A stretch of DNA of 35,650 nt, taken from a virus. Of this stretch, positions 12,280 through 35,650 are shown piece after piece. Position 1 is the stretch's first letter. The number at the start of each line of letters is the position of its first letter. A program made the translations under genes and the position numbers. The stretch lies in IMG/VR virus record IMGVR_UViG_3300050821_003710, positions 1 through 35,650 of that record; one strand, written 5' to 3'. The notes beneath the pieces are model-generated. The model was not told the DNA's origin. It worked only from the letters and a program-made list of their open reading frames with translations, and searched no databases.

Positions 12280-12489
12280 CTAAATAAAACCATATTTATG
12301 TAAAATAATAGGAATGATTACTCCCGAAACTATCAAAGCAATTACCCAATTAAATTTGCTATTTACCCCATCAACCTTTCGTTCTAATTTATCAAACTTA
12401 TAATCTATATGATTAAACAATGCATCATGAGTTCGTAACTTTACTTCATGTTCAATATATTGTTCCTGTTCTTTTGTTAAGCCACTCAA
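12280..12489 (-). CDS. Small coiled-coil membrane protein
   Basis: The 69-residue protein has a charged helical N-terminal half (EQEQYIEHEVKLRTHDALFN, KFDKLERKVDGVNSKFNW) and one C-terminal transmembrane segment (VIALIVSGVIIPIILHKYGF). This layout matches the small hemolysin-XhlA-like or holin-accessory proteins of phages. It shares the T-x-EQYI-HEV-R pattern with the gene at 12881-13048, so the two are probably paralogues. It is the distal gene of a four-gene minus cassette. Confidence 0.7.
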   Translation of the reverse strand: MSGLTKEQEQYIEHEVKLRTHDALFNHIDYKFDKLERKVDGVNSKFNWVIALIVSGVIIPIILHKYGFI

Positions 12490-12504
12490 AACATTTACTC
12501 CAAT

Positions 12505-12711
12505 TTAATGAACAAATTTAATAACAGAAATTAACGTACCGCTAAATAATGCATATAAACCGACTATCAATGTCATAGTCCATCTAAATTGCGATCTATT
12601 TTCAACTATCATTGAGTCCAATCGTTTATCTATACCTAATACTGCACTTTCTACAATTGAAATCCTTGTTTCCTGGTTATAAAAATCTTTTATGTCAATA
12701 ACATCACTCAC
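12505..12711 (-). CDS. Small coiled-coil membrane protein
   Basis: The 68-residue protein has a helical N-terminus (NQETRISIVESAVLGIDKRL) and one transmembrane segment (WTMTLIVGLYALFSGTLISV) near the C-terminus. The layout is XhlA-like. The start overlaps the stop of the upstream gene by four bases. A role in lysis or as a membrane anchor is plausible, but the endolysin gene lies 7.5 kb away on the other strand. Confidence 0.7.
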   Translation of the reverse strand: MSDVIDIKDFYNQETRISIVESAVLGIDKRLDSMIVENRSQFRWTMTLIVGLYALFSGTLISVIKFVH

Positions 12712-12878
12712 TTATTAATCCATCCTCTATCTTCGAATTTTTCAAAGCTTTTCTCCAATCTTTCGATATGATTTTTTAGATATCCAATTTCTATACGTAA
12801 AATTGATATATCTGTTTGATGCTTAAATAAAAGCTTTGTTTTGTATATTTCAAATGATTCTTCTTCATTATCAATCAT
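12708..12878 (-). CDS. Small charged coiled-coil protein
   Basis: The 56-residue protein starts at the ATG at 12878 (MIDNEEESFEIYKTK), with GGAGG upstream. It is almost wholly amphipathic helix (ISILRIEIGYLKNHIERLEK) and has no membrane segment, unlike its three neighbours. It could pair with the other cassette members through the coiled coil. Function unknown. Confidence 0.6.
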   Translation of the reverse strand: MIDNEEESFEIYKTKLLFKHQTDISILRIEIGYLKNHIERLEKSFEKFEDRGWINK

Positions 12879-12880
12879 AA

Positions 12881-13048
12881 TCAAACCATCCTCCAATAAT
12901 GGAGGAATATGGGGATTAAAACTGTTGTGAACATAGCACCACAAGTTCCCATGATGATATTCAATTTTCTATTTTGTTGTTTATAAATAATGTCATGTAA
13001 TCTTATTCGCACTTCATGATCTATATACTGCTCTGTAGTCTTTTCCAT
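12881..13048 (-). CDS. Small membrane protein, paralogue of 12280-12489
   Basis: The 55-residue protein (MEKTTEQYIDHEVRIRLHDI...) ends in one transmembrane segment (MFTTVLIPIFLHYW). The N-terminal TTEQYIDHEVRIRLHD lines up with KEQEQYIEHEVKLRTHD of the gene at 12280-12489, pointing to duplication. It is the first gene of the minus cassette and lies next to a divergent promoter region. Confidence 0.65.
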   Translation of the reverse strand: MEKTTEQYIDHEVRIRLHDIIYKQQNRKLNIIMGTCGAMFTTVLIPIFLHYWRMV

Positions 13049-21486: not shown

Positions 21487-21662
21487 TCAATCACCGCGTC
21501 TTTTTGCAACATATCATCTATTACATTTTTAAGTACATTTGATATATTTGCAATTTGTGAATAATCTGCAAAACAAGAAAGCTCAAGTTTATTATTAATA
21601 AAAATCTTTAATTCTCTTAGATTTGGTGTTACCGGCCAATAATGTACTCTAATTTCTATCAT
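21483..21662 (-). CDS. Hypothetical small early protein
   Basis: The 59-residue protein (MIEIRVHYWPVTPNLRELKI...) ends NVIDDMLQKDAVIE. It overlaps both neighbours by four bases as ATGA, which supports it as a true gene in the operon. No motif recognised. Confidence 0.65.
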   Translation of the reverse strand: MIEIRVHYWPVTPNLRELKIFINNKLELSCFADYSQIANISNVLKNVIDDMLQKDAVIE

Positions 21663-21868
21663 TTGTTTTTTAATCCTTCTAATGCTTTAGCATATTTCTT
21701 TTTAATTCTTTCACTGGCTTGGATGATCTGATTATGATCACAATAATTATCAATCATAGATTGGATTTTTTGACGAATGCGATTTAATTTAGTATTAGCT
21801 CCTCTAAATTCCGTTTCAGAGAAATTATGATACATGATAATTAGCTCTTCTTTCGTAAAATCATTCAT
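21659..21868 (-). CDS. MNDFTKEEL family small protein, copy 3
   Basis: The 69-residue protein opens MNDFTKEELIIMYHNFSETE and contains KIQSMIDNYCDH at about residues 34-45, the two blocks shared with the next two upstream genes. The C-terminus differs (IIQASERIKKKYAKALEGLK, no Cys pair). I recall this pattern from small phage proteins of unknown role. Coupled to its neighbours by short overlaps. Confidence 0.75.
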   Translation of the reverse strand: MNDFTKEELIIMYHNFSETEFRGANTKLNRIRQKIQSMIDNYCDHNQIIQASERIKKKYAKALEGLKNK

Positions 21869-22065
21869 TATTCACAATCTCCGCATTTTTTACATATACT
21901 TCCTAAACGATTGTGCTCATAAAATTCATGATCACAATAATTATCGATCATGGATTGGATTTTTAATTTAAGATTATCCAAATCTGAGCATTCTCCATGC
22001 TGCATTTCAGTCAATCGAACACATTTATATAAATTTCTGAGTTCTTCTTTAGTAAAATCATTCAT
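21868..22065 (-). CDS. MNDFTKEEL family small protein, copy 2 (zinc ribbon)
   Basis: The 65-residue paralogue of its neighbours opens MNDFTKEELRNLYKCVRLTE and has KIQSMIDNYCDHEF. The C-terminal CDH ... CKKCGDC supplies Cys and His for a small zinc ribbon. Start and stop overlap the adjacent genes. Probably arose by tandem duplication. Confidence 0.75.
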   Translation of the reverse strand: MNDFTKEELRNLYKCVRLTEMQHGECSDLDNLKLKIQSMIDNYCDHEFYEHNRLGSICKKCGDCE

Positions 22066-22264
22066 GATGTTTTCTACATTTTGAACATAAATTTATGGAA
22101 TTAATATCGTGAATTTCAGGACAATCTTGATCATAATACTTATCAATCATGGATTGAATTTTAATCTCTAACTCTTCGTCCCAGTTATTTATACCTGTAT
22201 AGACACGCAAAGATTTAATTGTTGAAATCAAACTTTCTAATTCTTCTTTAGTAAAATCATTCAT
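22058..22264 (-). CDS. MNDFTKEEL family small protein, copy 1
   Basis: The 68-residue protein uses the ATG at 22264 (MNDFTKEELESLISTIKSLR). It has the related block KIQSMIDKYYDQDCPE and ends NLCSKCRKHHE, a Cys/His-rich tail that could bind zinc. It is the first of the three tandem paralogues in transcription order. Confidence 0.75.
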   Translation of the reverse strand: MNDFTKEELESLISTIKSLRVYTGINNWDEELEIKIQSMIDKYYDQDCPEIHDINSINLCSKCRKHHE

Positions 22265-22266
22265 AA

Positions 22267-22524
22267 TCAAATATCCACTCGAACATGATCCCTAAAATAT
22301 TCAGGATCTTCTATAACCCTCTTCATAAGACAAGTATAGCAAACAAGCCAAATTTCTTTATCACGATTAGATGAAAGCTCAAGAAATGCTTTTTTCTTCT
22401 CTGATAACCACATTTTATTATTACACTTCGGACAATCAAATGGTTCACAGTGCGATTGATCTTTTGGTGCTTCTGGATAATCACTTATAGGTGGGCATAT
22501 AATTATTACTAAATCTCTAGACAT
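22267..22524 (-). CDS. Small Cys-rich protein
   Basis: The 85-residue protein starts at ATG 22524, which has GAGG eight bases upstream. It contains C-x2-C pairs (FDCPKCNNKMWL, VCYTCLMKR), a probable zinc ribbon. It follows the helicase gene closely and precedes the three MNDFTKEEL paralogues. Function unknown. Confidence 0.65.
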   Translation of the reverse strand: MSRDLVIIICPPISDYPEAPKDQSHCEPFDCPKCNNKMWLSEKKKAFLELSSNRDKEIWLVCYTCLMKRVIEDPEYFRDHVRVDI

Positions 22525-25275: not shown

Positions 25276-25594
25276 CTTTACACCCATCCAAAACCCATTG
25301 AATAGCCTTTTGATGCCCTTCAATTGCCTCATCCCATGTACTGTACCTATCGCAGTACTCATCAAGATGCAGGTCACCGTCATTAAAAACCATTGTTTCA
25401 AATATCAATGGCAGGCCACCAAGATAATTATGATCAATCCCAAGCCAAATAGTAGATATCCACTTTCCATTAACTGTATCTTCCTTTAAATTCTTATTAT
25501 TGGTTATCATCATATGTGTTAACTGCTCTGCCCATTCAACTACATCACAAGGCCTGGTTGTATGATCATCATTTAAATAATAAAACACATTCAT
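25262..25594 (-). CDS. Conserved-type phage protein of unknown function
   Basis: The 110-residue protein (MNVFYYLNDDHTTRPCDVVE, ISTIWLGIDHNYLGGLPLIF, then YSTWDEAIEGHQKAIQWVLD) has patterns I recall from many phage early regions. AAGGA lies 10 bases before the ATG. No enzymatic motif identified. It overlaps the next gene by 14 bases. Confidence 0.75.
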   Translation of the reverse strand: MNVFYYLNDDHTTRPCDVVEWAEQLTHMMITNNKNLKEDTVNGKWISTIWLGIDHNYLGGLPLIFETMVFNDGDLHLDEYCDRYSTWDEAIEGHQKAIQWVLDGCKDEMD

Positions 25595-25606
25595 TTATGA
25601 CATTCC

Positions 25607-25744
25607 TTATTTATTAATAAAAATCCATATCAAAATATTTATCCCCATACAAAGCATGCCTGCTATTAATGAAGGTAATTTCCAATATATCGATACGGGT
25701 ACTCCAATACATATTGAAGCAATAACATAAATCCATTCATTCAT
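25607..25744 (-). CDS. Small two-segment membrane protein
   Basis: The 45-residue protein (MNEWIYVIASICIGVPVSIY...) is almost entirely hydrophobic, with two short membrane segments split by YWKLPS. Its ATG overlaps the stop of the nuclease gene (ATGA). A membrane-associated early function, such as host takeover, is possible; nothing more can be said. Confidence 0.6.
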   Translation of the reverse strand: MNEWIYVIASICIGVPVSIYWKLPSLIAGMLCMGINILIWIFINK

Positions 25745-26394
25745 TTATGACATACCTTATTAAATTTGCACATTTTGCACTTGAAATATAATGGGCTTCC
25801 GTTAATCCTTGGTGGCTCAATATTAGCCGTAGAAATCATCAATGCTTTATCCTCCAACGATTTATAAAACTCTTCATCAAATAACACCAATTCATCGGAT
25901 AAATCACTATTATCCTTATTTAGTACAAGTATATATGCACTATTGATACCGCTCATGCCCATATAGGATTGAACTTGTGCATAATATTGAGGATTCCAAG
26001 ACTTTACTCCACTCTTGACAAATATTTTAAAGCTTGCGTCTTTTGCTGTTTTAATCTCAATAATGGCTTGAATCGTAGAATTCTTAATCCAAACTGAATC
26101 AAGATGCCCTCTAAAAATATCTATTGTCTTAGATTTAAGATCGTACCATCTCCTTACCACCTCAATTCCTGCATCATCAAGCCAATCAAGAATTAATCCC
26201 TCTAAATGCTTACCTATTACCCATGTGCGTCTAGTTTTAGTTGCAACCGATTCCGCAATAGTCCCCTTGTATTCATACCAAATTTGACGCAAACAATCAG
26301 ATCCAATGATTGACGCCCCTATGTAATCCCTAGACTCATTAATATCATGAGCCTGGGATTTATCGATTAACCTGGTTAATGTATCTCTAGTCAT
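25741..26394 (-). CDS. PD-(D/E)XK exonuclease with likely Fe-S cluster
   Basis: The 217-residue RecB/Cas4-like nuclease has motifs in order: Glu65 (GKHLEG), Asp99 (GHLDSV), E113-x-K115 (IEIKTA) and Q140-x3-Y144 (QVQSYM). Cys34 with Cys206-x2-Cys209-x5-Cys215 has the spacing of the Fe-S clusters in AddB and Cas4 nucleases. Phage members resect DNA ends for recombination. It lies downstream of SSB-like and Sak4-like genes, which together look like a single-strand annealing recombination system, but a terminator separates it from them. Confidence 0.82.
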   Translation of the reverse strand: MTRDTLTRLIDKSQAHDINESRDYIGASIIGSDCLRQIWYEYKGTIAESVATKTRRTWVIGKHLEGLILDWLDDAGIEVVRRWYDLKSKTIDIFRGHLDSVWIKNSTIQAIIEIKTAKDASFKIFVKSGVKSWNPQYYAQVQSYMGMSGINSAYILVLNKDNSDLSDELVLFDEEFYKSLEDKALMISTANIEPPRINGSPLYFKCKMCKFNKVCHK

Positions 26395-26525: not shown

Positions 26526-27107
26526 CTAAAAAGGAATGTCGTTCTCATCCTCAACCTTAGCACCAGCATTCCTGCTAAACGCACTATCAAGTGGATTATT
26601 GGAAGTATTAACATTGTTATGGGTAATAACAATGCTAACTCCCGTTTCACATTTAAACCCTTTAGCATCATGAATCTCAGCAACCCAATTGTATTGTTTT
26701 CCCTCATTATTAGGCTCTGTCTCACGAATTTTAATACCCGCAGCTTTACTTACAAATACCATTAAGTCCTGGTCTGTAGGTTCACCAGAATGCTTTGGCT
26801 TCACATTATAAAGCTGATAGATGAGTTTCAGCATATTCAAAGCTTTATGGCGTGTTTTATCTGAATCCTTAGCCTTTGGATCGCCATAAACTTTAAGCTT
26901 TTGATTGACATTTGCTCCTTTAAAATCTCCGTCTGTTAATATCCAGTCAATACTTAAGTACTTATTGCCCTGATATTCAGCATGGATAAAAGATTCAATA
27001 CGTGCTAATGCCATGGTTCCGTCTGGTATGTGCGTGAAACTCTTTGCAAACGCATCTTGCTCACTTCCTGTGATCTCGCCCAAATCGCTCTCCCAAAATC
27101 CGCTCAT
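26526..27107 (-). CDS. Single-stranded DNA-binding-like protein
   Basis: The 193-residue protein is beta-rich in its first half (YLSIDWILTDGDFKGANVNQ) and has a disordered Asn-rich tail ending EDENDIPF, the acidic-Pro-Phe tip typical of SSBs that recruit repair proteins. Its neighbours are a Sak4-like ATPase and a nuclease, so it probably coats single-stranded DNA in recombination and replication. The fold is not a clear canonical OB-fold SSB; it resembles DUF669-type phage proteins. It overlaps the upstream gene by four bases. Confidence 0.7.
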   Translation of the reverse strand: MSGFWESDLGEITGSEQDAFAKSFTHIPDGTMALARIESFIHAEYQGNKYLSIDWILTDGDFKGANVNQKLKVYGDPKAKDSDKTRHKALNMLKLIYQLYNVKPKHSGEPTDQDLMVFVSKAAGIKIRETEPNNEGKQYNWVAEIHDAKGFKCETGVSIVITHNNVNTSNNPLDSAFSRNAGAKVEDENDIPF

Positions 27108-27319: not shown

Positions 27320-27988
27320 TTATTCCTCATCGTTATAGTAAGATTCAACAGCCGTTTTAACCAACAATAAATCATTGGGTATAAAAACCTCCGAAAACAT
27401 ATCAATAGGCGATTTAGCCAAATAATCCCCATCATCTTGTGTTTGAAACAAATACTCACCATCCACAATACGTGAGTGCAAGACTGTAGTGAACAACCCT
27501 TCCAAGGTTATCTTTTCATCCAACATCTTACCAATGGTTTTAAGCTTTGACCTTCCCGTTACATCCATGTCGCTATGAGCCAATATAAAAGTAGTTAACG
27601 ATGCCCTGGTTCCCGTTGTACAGGTGTTCATAGTAGCCCAGCCATGGTGGGCAAGCTCACTAAACTTCTCAAATCCTTTCTCCGTAGCCCGCTTAATAAA
27701 CTCATAAGATAAAATATATTGCCAGTCATCTATAATCAGCGTGGTTATATCTTCACGCTCTTTATTAACCATCTCAATACAACGCACAACAGTCGCCCAA
27801 TCATGGGTTGTAAAATAATTGCCCGTCATATTTTCTTTGGTTACTAGCGAGTAATTCTTCTTAAAACCCCTGAATGGCAGGGGCTTGTCAAGAACATTAA
27901 TGATAAATGTAGATTTAGGATCAAGGTGTCTCATGGCGGTCGACTTTCCCGATCCGCTCTGACCTATAATAAGAACTGTATTGCTCAT
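27320..27988 (-). CDS. Sak4-like RecA-fold ATPase
   Basis: The 222-residue P-loop ATPase has Walker A GQSGSGKS (residues 9-16) and a Walker B-like strand TTLIIDDWQY near residue 102. Motif pattern and size match phage AAA_24 / Sak4 proteins, RecA-related single-strand annealing factors that work with a phage SSB. The SSB-like gene lies one small gene downstream, a common pairing. The stop precedes the Acb2-like start by 3 bases. Confidence 0.8.
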   Translation of the reverse strand: MSNTVLIIGQSGSGKSTAMRHLDPKSTFIINVLDKPLPFRGFKKNYSLVTKENMTGNYFTTHDWATVVRCIEMVNKEREDITTLIIDDWQYILSYEFIKRATEKGFEKFSELAHHGWATMNTCTTGTRASLTTFILAHSDMDVTGRSKLKTIGKMLDEKITLEGLFTTVLHSRIVDGEYLFQTQDDGDYLAKSPIDMFSEVFIPNDLLLVKTAVESYYNDEE

Positions 27989-30087: not shown

Positions 30088-30924
30088 ATGAGTATTTGCG
30101 CAACAAATTGGGCTTGGAGCCTACAAGACATTACATCCACAGAAAAATTAATTCTTCTTTCTTATGCGGACAGAGCAGGAGAAAGCATGGAGGCATGGCC
30201 ATCTAAAATGAGATTACACTTTGATACGGGATTGTGTTTAAACACCATCGACAAAGGACTTAAATCTCTTACAAAAAAAGGAAAAATAATAAAAACCGGA
30301 GAAACAAAAAATCAAGTTCCAGTATACAAATTAATCGGCGTAATTCCTCGCGAAGAAACCAATAGGAACCCACATAAAAAACAACCCCCCCCAAAAACAA
30401 CCCCCCCCAAAAATGGGGTGAGTACACCCCCCAAAAATGACCCCCCTACCCCCCCCAAAAATGGGATACAGAATCATCATTTGAATCATCAAAGGAATCC
30501 AAAGGGAGAAGACCTTATTTTTTCTTCTTTTTCTGATTTTAAAAACTATGTTACCGTCCTAGTTTCCGAAACTAAGAAACAACCTTTGGAAGATTTAGTT
30601 GAAGAGGTTTTATATTATTCAGAAGAGTTCAAAAACAAGAGATTACCTATTGAATCTGTAAAAATGGCAATCCCTCTTATAAAGAATGGAAAATGGAAAA
30701 CCCCTCATGGATTTAAAGGATTTAGCTTTAAATCTATTGTAGAAAAAGAGGAATCTTACGAACGTAAAAAACAAGAACAAATCATCGAAGATGGAAAAAT
30801 GGCAAGACAAATAAAGGAAGTTATTAAATCAGGTGGTAATTATCAAAGTCTCAAGGAAAGACTTCAAAACTATAGGGAAAATTTAAATGCCAACCCCAGA
30901 ACAATGCAAGAAAAAGCTATTTAA
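30088..30924 (+). CDS. Replication initiator-like protein (O-type) with in-gene iterons
   Basis: The 278-residue protein has an N-terminal winged helix (residues ~5-90: WSLQDITSTEKLILLSYADR, WPSKMRLHFDTGLCLNTIDK, SLTKKGKIIKTGETKNQVPV). Residues ~95-130 are a Pro/Lys repeat (TPPKNGVSTPPKND...) encoded by a C-rich iteron array. The C-terminal ~140 residues are helical and could recruit host helicase or loader. The arrangement is that of lambda O: N-terminal DNA binding, origin inside the gene, C-terminal partner contact. It overlaps the next gene by 38 bases. Confidence 0.72.
   Translation: MSICATNWAWSLQDITSTEKLILLSYADRAGESMEAWPSKMRLHFDTGLCLNTIDKGLKSLTKKGKIIKTGETKNQVPVYKLIGVIPREETNRNPHKKQPPPKTTPPKNGVSTPPKNDPPTPPKNGIQNHHLNHQRNPKGEDLIFSSFSDFKNYVTVLVSETKKQPLEDLVEEVLYYSEEFKNKRLPIESVKMAIPLIKNGKWKTPHGFKGFSFKSIVEKEESYERKKQEQIIEDGKMARQIKEVIKSGGNYQSLKERLQNYRENLNANPRTMQEKAI
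30385..30465. repeat. C-rich iteron array (candidate origin)
   Basis: Four copies of C(6-8)AAAAA end their C tracts at 30392, 30408, 30432 and 30456, giving spacings of 16, 24 and 24 bases. The second is followed by TGGGGTG and the fourth by TGGGA, giving partial symmetry. All lie inside the initiator-like gene. The long C homopolymers are prone to slippage and to sequencing error. Confidence 0.6.
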
Positions 30925-31156
30925 TTTAGGAGTTAAACTTGGCGTTTCCCCTAGATTAATATCAACAAGACTCTTGAGTGTTGAGGACAAAAAGGATATG
31001 TTACAAGGTCTTATTTCAGATGATGAGCTTGAATGTCATGTTTTAGTCTGGAAAGAAAGAGGAATGTACAGTTACGCAGATGGCTCAAATTTGCGTTATA
31101 CGTCACCCAAAGAATTACCTATGCGAAGGTATAGGGGTAATGGCAAAAATAGCTAG
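30887..31156 (+). CDS. Hypothetical protein overlapping the initiator-like gene
   Basis: The 89-residue protein (MPTPEQCKKKLFNLGVKLGV, LISTRLLSVEDKKDMLQGLI) starts 38 bases before the end of the initiator-like gene, in another frame, in the position of lambda P. The sequence resembles no helicase loader that I recognise. AGGGAAAATTTAA precedes the ATG. Confidence 0.6.
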   Translation: MPTPEQCKKKLFNLGVKLGVSPRLISTRLLSVEDKKDMLQGLISDDELECHVLVWKERGMYSYADGSNLRYTSPKELPMRRYRGNGKNS

Positions 31157-32059: not shown

Positions 32060-32458
32060 TTACAAACAAACATCTGAAAGTTTGTGTCTTATAAATCCTT
32101 TTGGACAATATCCTTCCATTGGTACGCTACAATCGTTCATATCTGTTAAGTTTTCCCATGATAAATAATAATCTTTAAATTCTTTAAATTTTTCTTCGTA
32201 GATATCTTCGCTTATTGTCCTATTTAAAAACACATAATCTACTTGCGGTATATCGTATCGCCTGTTTGTATATTCATAGCTATCGGTCATACCATCGAAA
32301 CGTCCTAGCTTATATTTTGAGGTTATTTCCTCCACCATAGCCGTGGTTACACCATTAACCCAATTAATACGCACGCTGTTATAGTCGCTCGTAACGCTAA
32401 ATTTTATTTTAGGAAAAGCTCTTTTTAATTCTGATTTTATTATTCTACCGATACTCAT
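32060..32458 (-). CDS. LPD29-domain-like protein
   Basis: The 132-residue protein uses the ATG at 32458, which has TGAGG upstream. N-terminal GRIIKSELKRAFPKIKFSVT and SVRINWVNGVTTAMVEEITS, then GRFDGMTDSYEY, match the pattern of LPD29, a large-polyvalent-protein-associated domain common in phage and plasmid genes of unknown function. The C-terminal ~55 residues (SWENLTDMNDCSVPMEGYCP) are extra. Confidence 0.7.
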   Translation of the reverse strand: MSIGRIIKSELKRAFPKIKFSVTSDYNSVRINWVNGVTTAMVEEITSKYKLGRFDGMTDSYEYTNRRYDIPQVDYVFLNRTISEDIYEEKFKEFKDYYLSWENLTDMNDCSVPMEGYCPKGFIRHKLSDVCL

Positions 32459-32496
32459 TTTCTTTATCCTCATTTTGTTAGTTGATAAAGCGACCT

Positions 32497-32770: not shown

Positions 32771-32837
32771 TGTGGATAAGTTTAGGTTGTGGTATTGTTA
32801 TATTGCTTTATTATTAATCGATTAATAATTATTCACA
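32771..32837. promoter_or_regulatory. Two DnaA boxes flanking a 20-bp palindrome
   Basis: TGTGGATAA (32771-32779; complement TTATCCACA) and TTATTCACA (32829-32837) are perfect DnaA boxes in opposite orientation. Between them is the perfect palindrome ATTATTAATCGATTAATAAT (32810-32829). The surrounding 32690-32840 stretch is very A+T-rich. This is a candidate replication origin or DnaA-controlled promoter region. No other gene is seen between 32665 and 32850. Confidence 0.55.
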
Positions 32838-32850
32838 TGGAGTGATGACA

Positions 32851-33048
32851 ATGAGAGAATCAAGAACTGGTGTAACGGATTACACTACTGATTATGCGGA
32901 TGAGGGCAATACGCATTATAACGGTGTGCCCTCTATGTATGGTAAATTAGTTGAGGAACAAAATCGTGAACAACCACAATATTGTGAGCCTGGTGAAGCG
33001 GGTGGTGAATTGCGCGGTGAGAAGCGTAATGAACAAGCTGGTCCATAA
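32851..33048 (+). CDS. Hypothetical small protein before terminase
   Basis: The 65-residue hydrophilic protein uses ATG 32851, eight bases after GGAG. Sequence is rich in Gly, Glu, Tyr and Asn (TDYTTDYADEGNTHYNGVPS). Not recognised. First gene of the packaging block. Confidence 0.55.
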   Translation: MRESRTGVTDYTTDYADEGNTHYNGVPSMYGKLVEEQNREQPQYCEPGEAGGELRGEKRNEQAGP

Positions 33049-33068
33049 TTAAAGGTATCGACACTATA

Positions 33069-33425
33069 ATGGCAGATCAAGTCTATAATGAGGCAATGTG
33101 TGAAATAGCAGAGCAATTACTCTCCAAGGGGAAAAGTATTGCGCGTGTTGCTACTAATCTGAGTGTTTGTCGTGACACGATCTATGACTGGCGCGATAAA
33201 CACCCTGAATTTGCACGTGCTCTGCAAAGAGGAAAAGACGCGTGTCAGGCGTACTGGGAAGATATAGGCGAGCAAGGCGTTAAAGGTGAGATTGATAAAT
33301 TTGCTGGCACATCTTGGATGTTCACGATGAAAAATAGATTTCGATCTGACTATAAAGAAGAAAAACAAGAGCCTACTTTTAATGAATCCTTGGTCGAAAA
33401 ACTAATAGATAGGCTGGTTGAATGA
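33069..33425 (+). CDS. Terminase small subunit
   Basis: The 118-residue protein has a helix-turn-helix at residues ~20-45 (KSIARVATNLSVCRDTIYDW), then HPEFARALQRGKDACQAYWE, DIGEQGVKGEIDKFAGTSWM and FTMKNRFRSDYKEE. This is the pattern of phage small terminases that recognise the packaging site and load the large subunit. The last residues KLIDRLVE recur at the end of the next gene. The large subunit lies 1.1 kb downstream, an unusual separation. Confidence 0.85.
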   Translation: MADQVYNEAMCEIAEQLLSKGKSIARVATNLSVCRDTIYDWRDKHPEFARALQRGKDACQAYWEDIGEQGVKGEIDKFAGTSWMFTMKNRFRSDYKEEKQEPTFNESLVEKLIDRLVE

Positions 33426-33782
33426 TGGATATACGTTTATATGATACAGATAATTTAGAGAGGAATATTATTGGAGCACTCTTGTTAGACGGATCGCTAA
33501 TTAAAATATCAAAAGAAATAATAAGTTCCGATCATTTTGCCAGCTCAGTTCTAGAACATTTATACCAAGCTATTTTATCCCTTGATAAAAGAAAGGTGGC
33601 AATAGATGCTGTAATGGTTATCAGCGCAATAAATGCAAATGATATCGATCTCCAGGTTAATGAGATTTATATCTATGAACTTGCAATTAATGCTGGGTCT
33701 TGCTCTAATTTTATGGACTACTGTAATGAATTACATAGAATAAGATTACTTGATAAATTTATAGATAGGCTCGTTGAATGAT
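33405..33782. repeat. 22-bp direct repeats flanking the DnaB-N gene
   Basis: ATAGATAGGCT at 33405 begins a 22-base sequence covering the end of the small terminase gene, which recurs with one mismatch at 33761-33782, the end of the DnaB-N gene. Both copies encode IDRLVE and a stop overlapping the next ATG. The gene between them looks like a cassette inserted with, or through, a copy of the terminase 3' end. Confidence 0.7.
33425..33781 (+). CDS. Stand-alone DnaB N-terminal-domain protein
   Basis: The 118-residue protein consists of a DnaB-helicase N-terminal domain (NLERNIIGALLLDGSLIKIS, HFASSVLEHLYQAILSLDKR, AIDAVMVISAIN), with no RecA-like ATPase domain. In DnaB this domain forms the collar that contacts primase and helicase loaders. 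A free copy could compete for or redirect the host replicative helicase, or replace a loader. The start could also be the ATG at 33422. It overlaps the terminase stop and is flanked by direct repeats. Confidence 0.75.
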   Translation: MDIRLYDTDNLERNIIGALLLDGSLIKISKEIISSDHFASSVLEHLYQAILSLDKRKVAIDAVMVISAINANDIDLQVNEIYIYELAINAGSCSNFMDYCNELHRIRLLDKFIDRLVE

Positions 33783-34041
33783 ATTTGAAGATGCACTCGC
33801 ACAGTTAAGATTAGGTAAGAAAATAAAACATCCTTCAATGGATGAGGATGTATGGTTTCAAGGATGCTATGTTTCTATCATGGGTTCAAAAATTGATACT
33901 GTATCTATCGTAAAGATGAAAGGAGAATACGAACATCCTGATATGAGACCTTCTTTTAAAATTAAATCATGTAAACATGGTCATACGCCTCAATTAGACT
34001 TGTTTCTTGTTATGTCGGATGAGTGGGAGGTTTTTGAGTGA
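33778..34041 (+). CDS. DUF2829 / Tad2-like protein (candidate anti-Thoeris)
   Basis: The 87-residue protein begins MIFEDALAQLRLGKKIKHPS and ends LVMSDEWEVFE, the F-x-x-AL-x-x-L-x-x-GKK ... DDWEV frame of DUF2829. Tad2, an anti-Thoeris sponge for the 1''-3' gcADPR signal, belongs to DUF2829. The middle (VWFQGCYVSIMGSKIDTVSI, PDMRPSFKI) is more divergent. It overlaps the DnaB-N stop (ATGA) and the next start (GTGA). Signal binding is inferred from family. Confidence 0.6.
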   Translation: MIFEDALAQLRLGKKIKHPSMDEDVWFQGCYVSIMGSKIDTVSIVKMKGEYEHPDMRPSFKIKSCKHGHTPQLDLFLVMSDEWEVFE

Positions 34042-34560: not shown

Positions 34561-35650
34561 ATGTCAGAAGATAAACTCATACGTATACTCAAATCCCTAC
34601 CACTCTTTGCCCAAAACTTCCTCATTATCCACGATAAACTCGGTGTATCAAGACCATTGAAATTTAATCGCGCGCAAGAATTTATCCATCAACGGGTTGA
34701 AGCACAACGCGAGGCTACGGGTAAAGTTAGGGCTTTAATATTAAAAGGACGCCAGCAAGGTTGCTCAACTTATGTGCAAGCACGATTCATTCATAAGATT
34801 GTTACCCGTCGCGGCAAAAAAGGATTCATCCTAACCCATTCATCCGATGCAACACGCGCAATTTTTGGAATGACCAAGCGTTATAGCGAACATTTACCCG
34901 CAGAATTTTTCCCCCGACCCGACAAATGCAATGACAATACATTAATGTATGATGGCATTGAATCGGGTTATCGCGTAGGGACTGCGGGTAATGCCGAGAT
35001 AGGTCGCTCTATGACTAACCAATATTTGCATTTATCTGAGTATGCATTTTACAAGGACGCTGCGCGTATTAGCATGGGATTATTGCAAACCGTTGCTGAG
35101 ATGGAGGATACGGAGGTTTTTAAGGAATCAACGGCTAATGGTATTGATAATGATTTTTATAGCGATTGGCAAGAAGCAAAGAATGGTGCAAGCCGATATC
35201 AGGCAATCTTTGTGCCCTGGTATTGGCAGGATGAATATTGTATTGACGATCCTAACTTTGTGCCTACCGATGAGGAAATTGATTGGCTTGAACAGTTCGG
35301 ACCTAATGGCCTTAAACCCGGGCATTTGAACTGGAGGCGTATTAAGCTACAAGACTTTAAGGGCGATACGGAGCAAAAATGCCGAAAGTTTCGGCAAGAA
35401 TATCCGTTTACCGATGTTGAGGCATTCCTATCATCTATTACTGATACGTTTATCCAAGTGGAGCATGCAATACGCGCCCGAAAAAACAAAGTGGACAGTC
35501 AATCAAACCTGGTTATAGGAATTGACCCAGCTCGCATGGGTGATGACCGTACCGCCATTATCAGGCGCAAAGGCAGACGCGCATATAATCTTGAAACGCA
35601 TTACAATATTGATACGATGCAGCTAGTTGGTATAATAAAGCGTATGATAG
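34561..35650 (+). CDS. Terminase large subunit (3' end cut by window)
   Basis: 363 residues are visible and the frame runs off the edge. Walker A-like GRQQGCST lies at residues 63-70, preceded by RALILK. A Walker B-type strand with catalytic Glu is YLHLSEY (Glu160), and the coupling motif is ESTANG (189-194). The nuclease domain begins VIGIDPARMGDDRTAI, with the first metal-binding Asp. It packages DNA into the procapsid through the portal using ATP. The missing end should contain the remaining nuclease motifs. AGGAAGTAA precedes the ATG. Confidence 0.93.
   Translation, partial: MSEDKLIRILKSLPLFAQNFLIIHDKLGVSRPLKFNRAQEFIHQRVEAQREATGKVRALILKGRQQGCSTYVQARFIHKIVTRRGKKGFILTHSSDATRAIFGMTKRYSEHLPAEFFPRPDKCNDNTLMYDGIESGYRVGTAGNAEIGRSMTNQYLHLSEYAFYKDAARISMGLLQTVAEMEDTEVFKESTANGIDNDFYSDWQEAKNGASRYQAIFVPWYWQDEYCIDDPNFVPTDEEIDWLEQFGPNGLKPGHLNWRRIKLQDFKGDTEQKCRKFRQEYPFTDVEAFLSSITDTFIQVEHAIRARKNKVDSQSNLVIGIDPARMGDDRTAIIRRKGRRAYNLETHYNIDTMQLVGIIKRMI

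Follow-up and report, generated by a model that had tools for sequence, protein, structure and literature searches.

The exchange of modules at short sequences common to gene borders has been proposed as a source of phage mosaicism (PMC3029335), and a survey of protein-fragment shuffling in phages describes joined fragments of unrelated proteins, with helicases among the mosaic classes (PMC10684548). The small terminase subunit (TerS) of phage lambda, gpNu1, is also modular, with a DNA-binding N-terminal part and a C-terminal part that faces and binds the large subunit, TerL (PMC6739421). Short repeats beside the starts of small genes, SAS and ESAS, are known in mycobacteriophages (PMC3203893). 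At the host replisome, the C-terminal domain of DnaG binds the collar of the DnaB helicase (PMC6163395), lambda P acts on DnaB (PMC3640518), and one phage protein binds the DnaI of S. aureus (PMC4887207).

The locus described here, a cassette encoding a DnaB N-terminal domain (DnaB-N) behind the TerS gene of a soil phage, is a variant of two of these known kinds, module exchange at short boundary sequences and the modular TerS. It differs from the mosaicism proposal in that the border sequence codes for a conserved protein tail, which is fused in frame to the incoming gene, with two copies left behind. The fragments in the shuffling survey are at least 50 aa long, and its text does not mention terminase (PMC10684548), whereas the shared fragment here is about 12 aa. 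Compared with gpNu1, the matched element is only some 12 residues, it is carried by three TerS bodies and one non-terminase protein, and its contact with TerL is a presumed one. The SAS and ESAS elements occur in many non-coding copies per genome, while here there are two coding copies, both of which end genes. Finally, lambda P and the DnaI-binding protein have unrelated folds that act on the loader or the motor, whereas DnaB-N reproduces the collar; the possible shared outcome is competition at the host replisome. With the DnaB helicase DnaB-N shares the profile and the modelled fold, but the linker helix and the RecA motor are found only in DnaB.

Window and Related Records

The window, that is, the whole stretch of DNA analyzed, is an uncultivated soil-phage record of 35,650 bases. 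Related records and loci are denoted by L and a number. One of them, L022, matches the window at both ends (positions 35650 and 1). These matches lie about 1.6 kb apart in L022, and the window thus looks like a circularly permuted genome missing these 1.6 kb. Alignment of TerL yielded 80 loci; TerS could be named in 63 loci, the window counted. The search for DnaB domains covered 86 related phage records, many of them fragments, so that its counts refer to the visible part. By TerL, Pseudoalteromonas and Vibrio phages come closest among cultured relatives (about 42%), and in a scan of genomes with TerS the sole match, of 27 residues, was to an Ignavibacteria genome. The terminase region of the window contains the following features.

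32842..33048, plus strand: 68-aa gene upstream of TerS, the left edge of the block exchanged relative to L022
33069..33425, plus strand: TerS, with a class 1 HTH body and the C-terminal tail SLVEKLIDRLVE (PHROG 309, terminase small subunit, E 1.8e-18)
33396..33426, plus strand: repeat copy 1, the native TerS 3' end with an ATGA stop-start overlap, kept in relatives
33422..33781, plus strand: DnaB-N ORF of 119 aa, with the collar domain at residues 11-105 and then a TerS-type tail, lacking a helicase motor
33743..33781, plus strand: second TerS tail, the last 12 codons of DnaB-N (RLLDKFIDRLVE) and the stop, recognized by the repeat, by homology from 33752 onward to the L022 TerS tail and its following gene, and by alignments
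33752..33782, plus strand: repeat copy 2, the DnaB-N 3' end with an ATGA overlap with the next gene
33778..34041, plus strand: 87-aa protein, a candidate distant Tad2-like (Thoeris anti-defence 2) protein, encoded directly after TerS in L035 and L022
34038..34187, plus strand: 49-aa small protein with zinc-ribbon-like cysteines and weak matches only, conserved in L022
34204..34560, plus strand: DUF1003 membrane protein (PF06210, E 5.8e-34)
34561..35650, plus strand: TerL, cut by the record end (PHROG 6681, E 3.5e-7; full-length relatives)

A Stand-Alone DnaB Collar

DnaB-N matches PF00772 over residues 11-105 (E 7.2e-14, 52.1 bits against a cut-off of 23), the only occurrence of this family in the window, and is also matched by the DnaB profiles of NCBIfam and PHROG. 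Domain and profile searches detected no RecA-like motor with Walker motifs in DnaB-N, and the ORF stops after 119 aa. An earlier note, made from the letters of the window, had placed a helicase collar without its motor directly after TerS; the profile match, the lack of a motor, and the ATGA overlap with TerS bear this out.

A single-sequence structure model of DnaB-N reached a pLDDT of 41 and was replaced by an AlphaFold model from a six-row alignment, with a mean pLDDT of 89.7 and a pTM of 0.83. The latter consists of six helices, the last of which (94-118) takes in the tail. Its Foldseek matches are DnaB collars of M. tuberculosis, E. coli, Vibrio, and other bacteria, with TM scores up to 0.86, and the model predicts that DnaB-N folds as a free collar. 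Absent are the second of the hairpin helices, the linker helix, and the motor, and the modelled loss of the hairpin helix may weaken dimerisation or primase binding. In the alignment, Tyr83 of DnaB-N corresponds to Tyr88 of Geobacillus DnaB, a residue of the primase interface. This match proves little, since the residue is common in the fold.

Collars that stand alone are rare: in 118 bacterial genomes, the 125 collar matches were without exception part of open frames of 279 aa or more. The existence of a phage family of stand-alone DnaB-N proteins was considered and rejected: a tblastn search of INPHARED with DnaB-N gave no match, and four distant viral relatives are all full-length proteins. 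Most BFVD matches, likewise, are helicases of full length; a 139-aa protein with a weak E-value is the one exception. Models of defence systems returned nothing meaningful for DnaB-N, and the literature search turned up no relevant report of a DnaB N-terminal domain standing alone in a phage. Among the 86 related records, a stand-alone DnaB-N is present, besides the window, only in L002, a near-identical twin with one SNP in 5.2 kb, and the gene is thus known from a single lineage; one distant record has a full-length DnaB. The G+C content of the collar body is 31.5%, compared with 41.8% in TerS and 43.1% in TerL. The donor of the collar was not found.

The Repeat at the Ends of TerS and DnaB-N

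The last bases of the two genes form a direct repeat of 22 nt with one mismatch (33405-33426 and 33761-33782), which is part of a longer repeat of 31 nt with 87% identity (33396-33426 and 33752-33782). Its codons are the end of the TerS C-terminal tail, followed by a stop that overlaps the next start. Both overlaps are of the ATGA type, the DnaB-N start lying in the TerS stop and the start of the next gene in the DnaB-N stop, and in both copies AGG is located eight bases ahead of the ATGA start. The statement in the earlier note that the last 22 bases are alike but for one is correct, except that this span also takes in the stop and the overlapping start of the following gene. In the proteins, LLDKFIDRLVE of DnaB-N is aligned with LVEKLIDRLVE of TerS.

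Chance similarity was rejected by four comparisons. Dinucleotide shuffles of the window never produced a match of this quality. The window holds seven direct pairs of 22 nt with at most one mismatch, most of them in tandem paralogous genes. A multi-record scan of 748 kb revealed 25 repeats of this size, many of them in paralogous or internally repetitive genes, and one shuffled control contained none. Finally, the 63 related loci contain 152 ORF ends between TerS and TerL, and of these only that of DnaB-N matches its own TerS end in at least 19 of 27 nt, the actual value being 24 of 27. The two repeat cores agree in 21 of 22 positions within the genome, and each is less like the tails of aligned relatives. 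Since TerS proteins of relatives without DnaB-N, which are 46-70% identical to that of the window, bear the same kind of tail, copy 1 is the native one, and copy 2, on DnaB-N, is extra.

Junctions in Related Phages

The window and L022 are 92% identical (blastn) over 32809-33049, where the homology ends. No homology was detected over 33050-33751, a segment that holds TerS and DnaB-N in the window and a DNA methyltransferase and another TerS in L022. It resumes exactly at 33752, the first base of the 31-nt repeat. L022 was rejected as an undisturbed site without the insert because the body of its TerS is different as well, so that the breakpoint alone is ambiguous, and L035 was used instead. 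The TerS of L035 belongs to the window's class and has the tail; it is joined by an ATGA overlap to a homologue of the 87-aa gene, and DnaB-N is absent. The two 87-aa-type proteins are only 24% identical (E 8e-7). The order is the same in L036, but with a gap of 119 nt between TerS and the homologue. Where the insert is absent, in L035, L036, and L022, there is a single copy of the tail.

The simplest history suggested by these junctions is the insertion of a DnaB collar at the border of TerS and the Tad2-like gene, with a second tail fused in frame, and we consider this anatomy and history, taken alone, very probable. The earlier note had proposed entry by recombination at the terminase 3' end, with both reading frames left intact, and had advised a survey of related phages for the cassette. 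The uninterrupted junction of L035 and the resumption of L022 homology at the repeat agree with such an entry, the frames of TerS and DnaB-N stay open, and the cassette is missing between TerS and TerL in the relatives, the twin L002 excepted. Neither of the findings that the note would have counted against this entry, an absent repeat or a gene found in every case as a fusion to a motor, came up among these relatives. As to the repeat as a recombination site, the joint does lie there, but the repeat is no anonymous target: it is a conserved TerS tail with its stop-start signal.

The assignment of the 87-aa protein is through its relatives. The window protein has no direct Pfam hit, while its homologue in L035 matches PF11195 (Tad2) with E 1.9e-4 and 22.4 bits, against a cut-off of 25; the homologous genes are located at L035:3466-3711 and L036:600-911. 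More generally, the space between TerS and TerL varies in relatives: in some the genes overlap, in others more than 2,000 nt intervene, and the small genes in it vary by relative. Judged by its gene content, this gap is an accessory hotspot. Small paralogous proteins that start with MNDFTKEEL are encoded in tandem in the early region of the window (21659-22270, minus strand) and also in the TerS-TerL gap of L011 and L055.

Tails, TerS Bodies, and TerL

The TerS proteins of the group have bodies of three classes: Sf6-like (PF20901, E 9e-30), that of the window, and that of L022. The window TerS matches PF20901 with E 2.8e-4, below the cut-off, and blastp draws no link between the L022 class and the other two. 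In phages whose TerL is at least 70% identical to that of the window, all three bodies bear variants of phi-V-E-K-L-I-D-K/R-L-V-E. In a remoter TerL clade (L095, L096, L097, L104, and L106), the same three bodies carry another tail, S-L-L-E-K-I-I-S-G-E-L-K (SLLEKIISGELK). When TerS proteins with different bodies are paired, the similarity of their tails is correlated with the identity of the TerL proteins (r 0.61), a value reached in 1 of 5000 permutations; the tails were shuffled within body classes, and effects of common descent partly remain in this test. By this measure the tail similarity appears to follow TerL, not the TerS body.

The sharing of tails across different bodies would be hard to explain otherwise, which suggests that the tail fits something on the TerL side. 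By analogy with the C-terminal part of lambda TerS, we infer that it is a putative TerL-docking peptide. The same region stands out at the DNA level. Some TerS genes with unrelated bodies show isolated homology in their last 36 nt or so, with 92% identity between the window and L022 (listed as L032, the same record, in this comparison) and 86% between L033 and L034.

Similar Repeats and Recombination Genes

A second cassette was found on the minus strand of the window, close to a group of recombination genes.

25607..25744, minus strand: 45-aa membrane ORF of the second cassette, between the 24-nt repeats 25738-25761 and 25588-25611
25741..26394, minus strand: Cas4/YqaJ-like exonuclease (PHROG 1990, E 1.2e-51), its 3' end being the second-cassette repeat
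26526..27107, minus strand: single-strand DNA-binding protein (PHROG 9002, E 9e-13)
27320..27988, minus strand: Sak4-like single-strand annealing protein (PHROG 2872, E 8e-70), a candidate recombinase for the joints

The repeats of this cassette (25588-25761) differ by one mismatch, and the one lying upstream corresponds to the exonuclease gene's 3' end. In two relatives, the end of the exonuclease gene is followed by other genes, and both the 45-aa ORF and the second repeat copy are missing. Thus, as far as its layout tells, the second cassette is of the same design as the DnaB-N cassette. Further, at L088:769-1636 a portion of the TerS tail is seen again 846 nt downstream of TerS, in 20 of 22 bases and out of frame, after an extra small gene that L089 lacks. 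As such out-of-frame copies exist, a second tail need not be functional. Two more small ORFs in this region of L088 end in NKLAD, like the tail. The Sak4 protein of HK620 anneals strands with a divergence of up to 20%, and its own single-strand DNA-binding protein stimulates it (PMC5928155).

Elsewhere on the minus strand (12280-13048), similar small membrane proteins are encoded in a row in which the ribosome-binding and start sequence recurs; they are apparently tandem duplicates.

Origin and Possible Role of the DnaB-N Cassette

We propose the following scenario. In the older order, as the comparison with relatives shows, TerS, with its tail and ATGA overlap, was followed directly by the Tad2-like gene. 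The 5' part of a dnaB gene, about 107 codons encoding the collar, then entered between them, and the joint fell in the tail, so that the collar came to end in a second TerS tail with a stop-start signal, and all frames stayed open. The tail itself would be kept because it is fitted to its TerL partner, as the correlation with TerL suggests, and the 36 bp or so that phages share beside variable genes may be the place where an annealing recombinase, for example, Sak4, joins DNA. Because the ATGA overlaps couple the genes, DnaB-N is probably made together with TerS and the Tad2-like protein.

The possible role of the protein is connected with the way in which these phages replicate. The replication genes of the window include an initiator and a small companion.

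30088..30924, plus strand: O-like replication initiation protein (PHROG 6643, E 2.9e-22)
30887..31156, plus strand: 89-aa initiator companion, a candidate recruiter of host DnaB, present in 19 of the 19 relatives searched

Profile searches gave no family match for the companion. A DnaB-family motor is found neither in the window phage nor, with the exception of one distant record, in its group. As the group is without a DnaB helicase of its own, and the companion is present in every relative searched, these phages probably recruit the DnaB of the host. In a phage lacking its own replicative helicase, DnaB-N might compete with the host DnaB collar for primase or cap DnaB collars. Our best guess, and the most likely role, is accessory: DnaB-N may serve in host takeover or in counter-defence. 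Taken alone, the host-takeover role, and with it the diversion of host replication put forward in the earlier note, is tentative, with the odds somewhat against it. To the explanation as a whole, that is, a chimera formed at the tail joint with an accessory role in host takeover or counter-defence, we assign a probability of roughly 0.6.

The main rival is that the collar is gene debris, a non-functional leftover of an illegitimate exchange that is open only for now, with the second tail as a scar. It agrees with the restriction of DnaB-N to one lineage, with the out-of-frame or untranslated state of the other tail and repeat copies (L088 and the second cassette), and with the low G+C content of the collar body, as recent foreign DNA could have. 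However, the frame is complete and ATGA-coupled at both ends, it spans a whole collar subdomain with a confident model, and it sits among accessory genes that are kept; on balance we regard this explanation as unlikely. If the second tail is functional rather than a scar, it might dock DnaB-N on TerL, and so link the motor of packaging with the replisome or primase of the host, or displace TerS, and replication would then give way to packaging. The apparent TerL specificity of the tail, its presence on three unrelated bodies, and the retention of all tail features in the DnaB-N copy are consistent with such an adaptor. It is nevertheless improbable, given that, as out-of-frame copies elsewhere show, a second tail may be nothing more than a scar, and that the modelled tail is the end of a long collar helix, not a free peptide.

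The repeat could also be kept for its ribosome-binding motif and ATGA coupling, with recombination irrelevant, as the AGG eight bases before the ATGA start in both copies and the start-associated repeats of mycobacteriophages (PMC3203893) would suggest. This reading is weakened by the conservation of the tail as protein: relatives keep it although the stop-start context varies (TAATG, TAG, or gaps). Moreover, the genome has two copies only, and the homology to L022 starts exactly at copy 2, which makes a purely translational signal quite improbable. The possibility that DnaB-N binds and diverts the host helicase loader, raised in the earlier note together with primase binding, has parallels in the phage protein that binds DnaI (PMC4887207) and in the action of lambda P on DnaB (PMC3640518). 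DnaB-N, in contrast, is devoid of the second hairpin helix, the linker helix, and the motor, the parts that loaders hold. In complexes of DnaC, lambda P, and DciA with the helicase, the linker helix and motor ring of DnaB are what is gripped. Because DnaB-N has neither, loader binding is the less likely option, and we consider loader capture highly improbable.

The preferred tail-joint scenario leads to a testable rule: TerS would keep a tail of about 12 residues matched to TerL while the rest of the protein swaps, and the DNA of the tail would mark the joints of foreign genes. Such a rule would provide a handle on the specificity of TerS for TerL and on the acquisition of genes by phages whose packaging operon stays intact. 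DnaB-N would also offer a natural stand-alone DnaB collar, a form unseen in the 118 bacterial genomes, suited to testing its effects on primase.

Several other proteins with related or free-standing domains were observed. In L006 (101-1453), a full-length DnaB of 450 aa, the only phage DnaB seen in the group, is encoded right after an HTH initiator gene. A 419-aa protein of L021 (2947-4206) opens with a DnaB collar, and its ATPase part appears by eye to be RepA/AAA-like, unlike the usual DnaB motor. Finally, a short protein encoded in the window at 32060-32473 (minus strand) matches LPD29, a large-polyvalent-protein domain, which here stands on its own.
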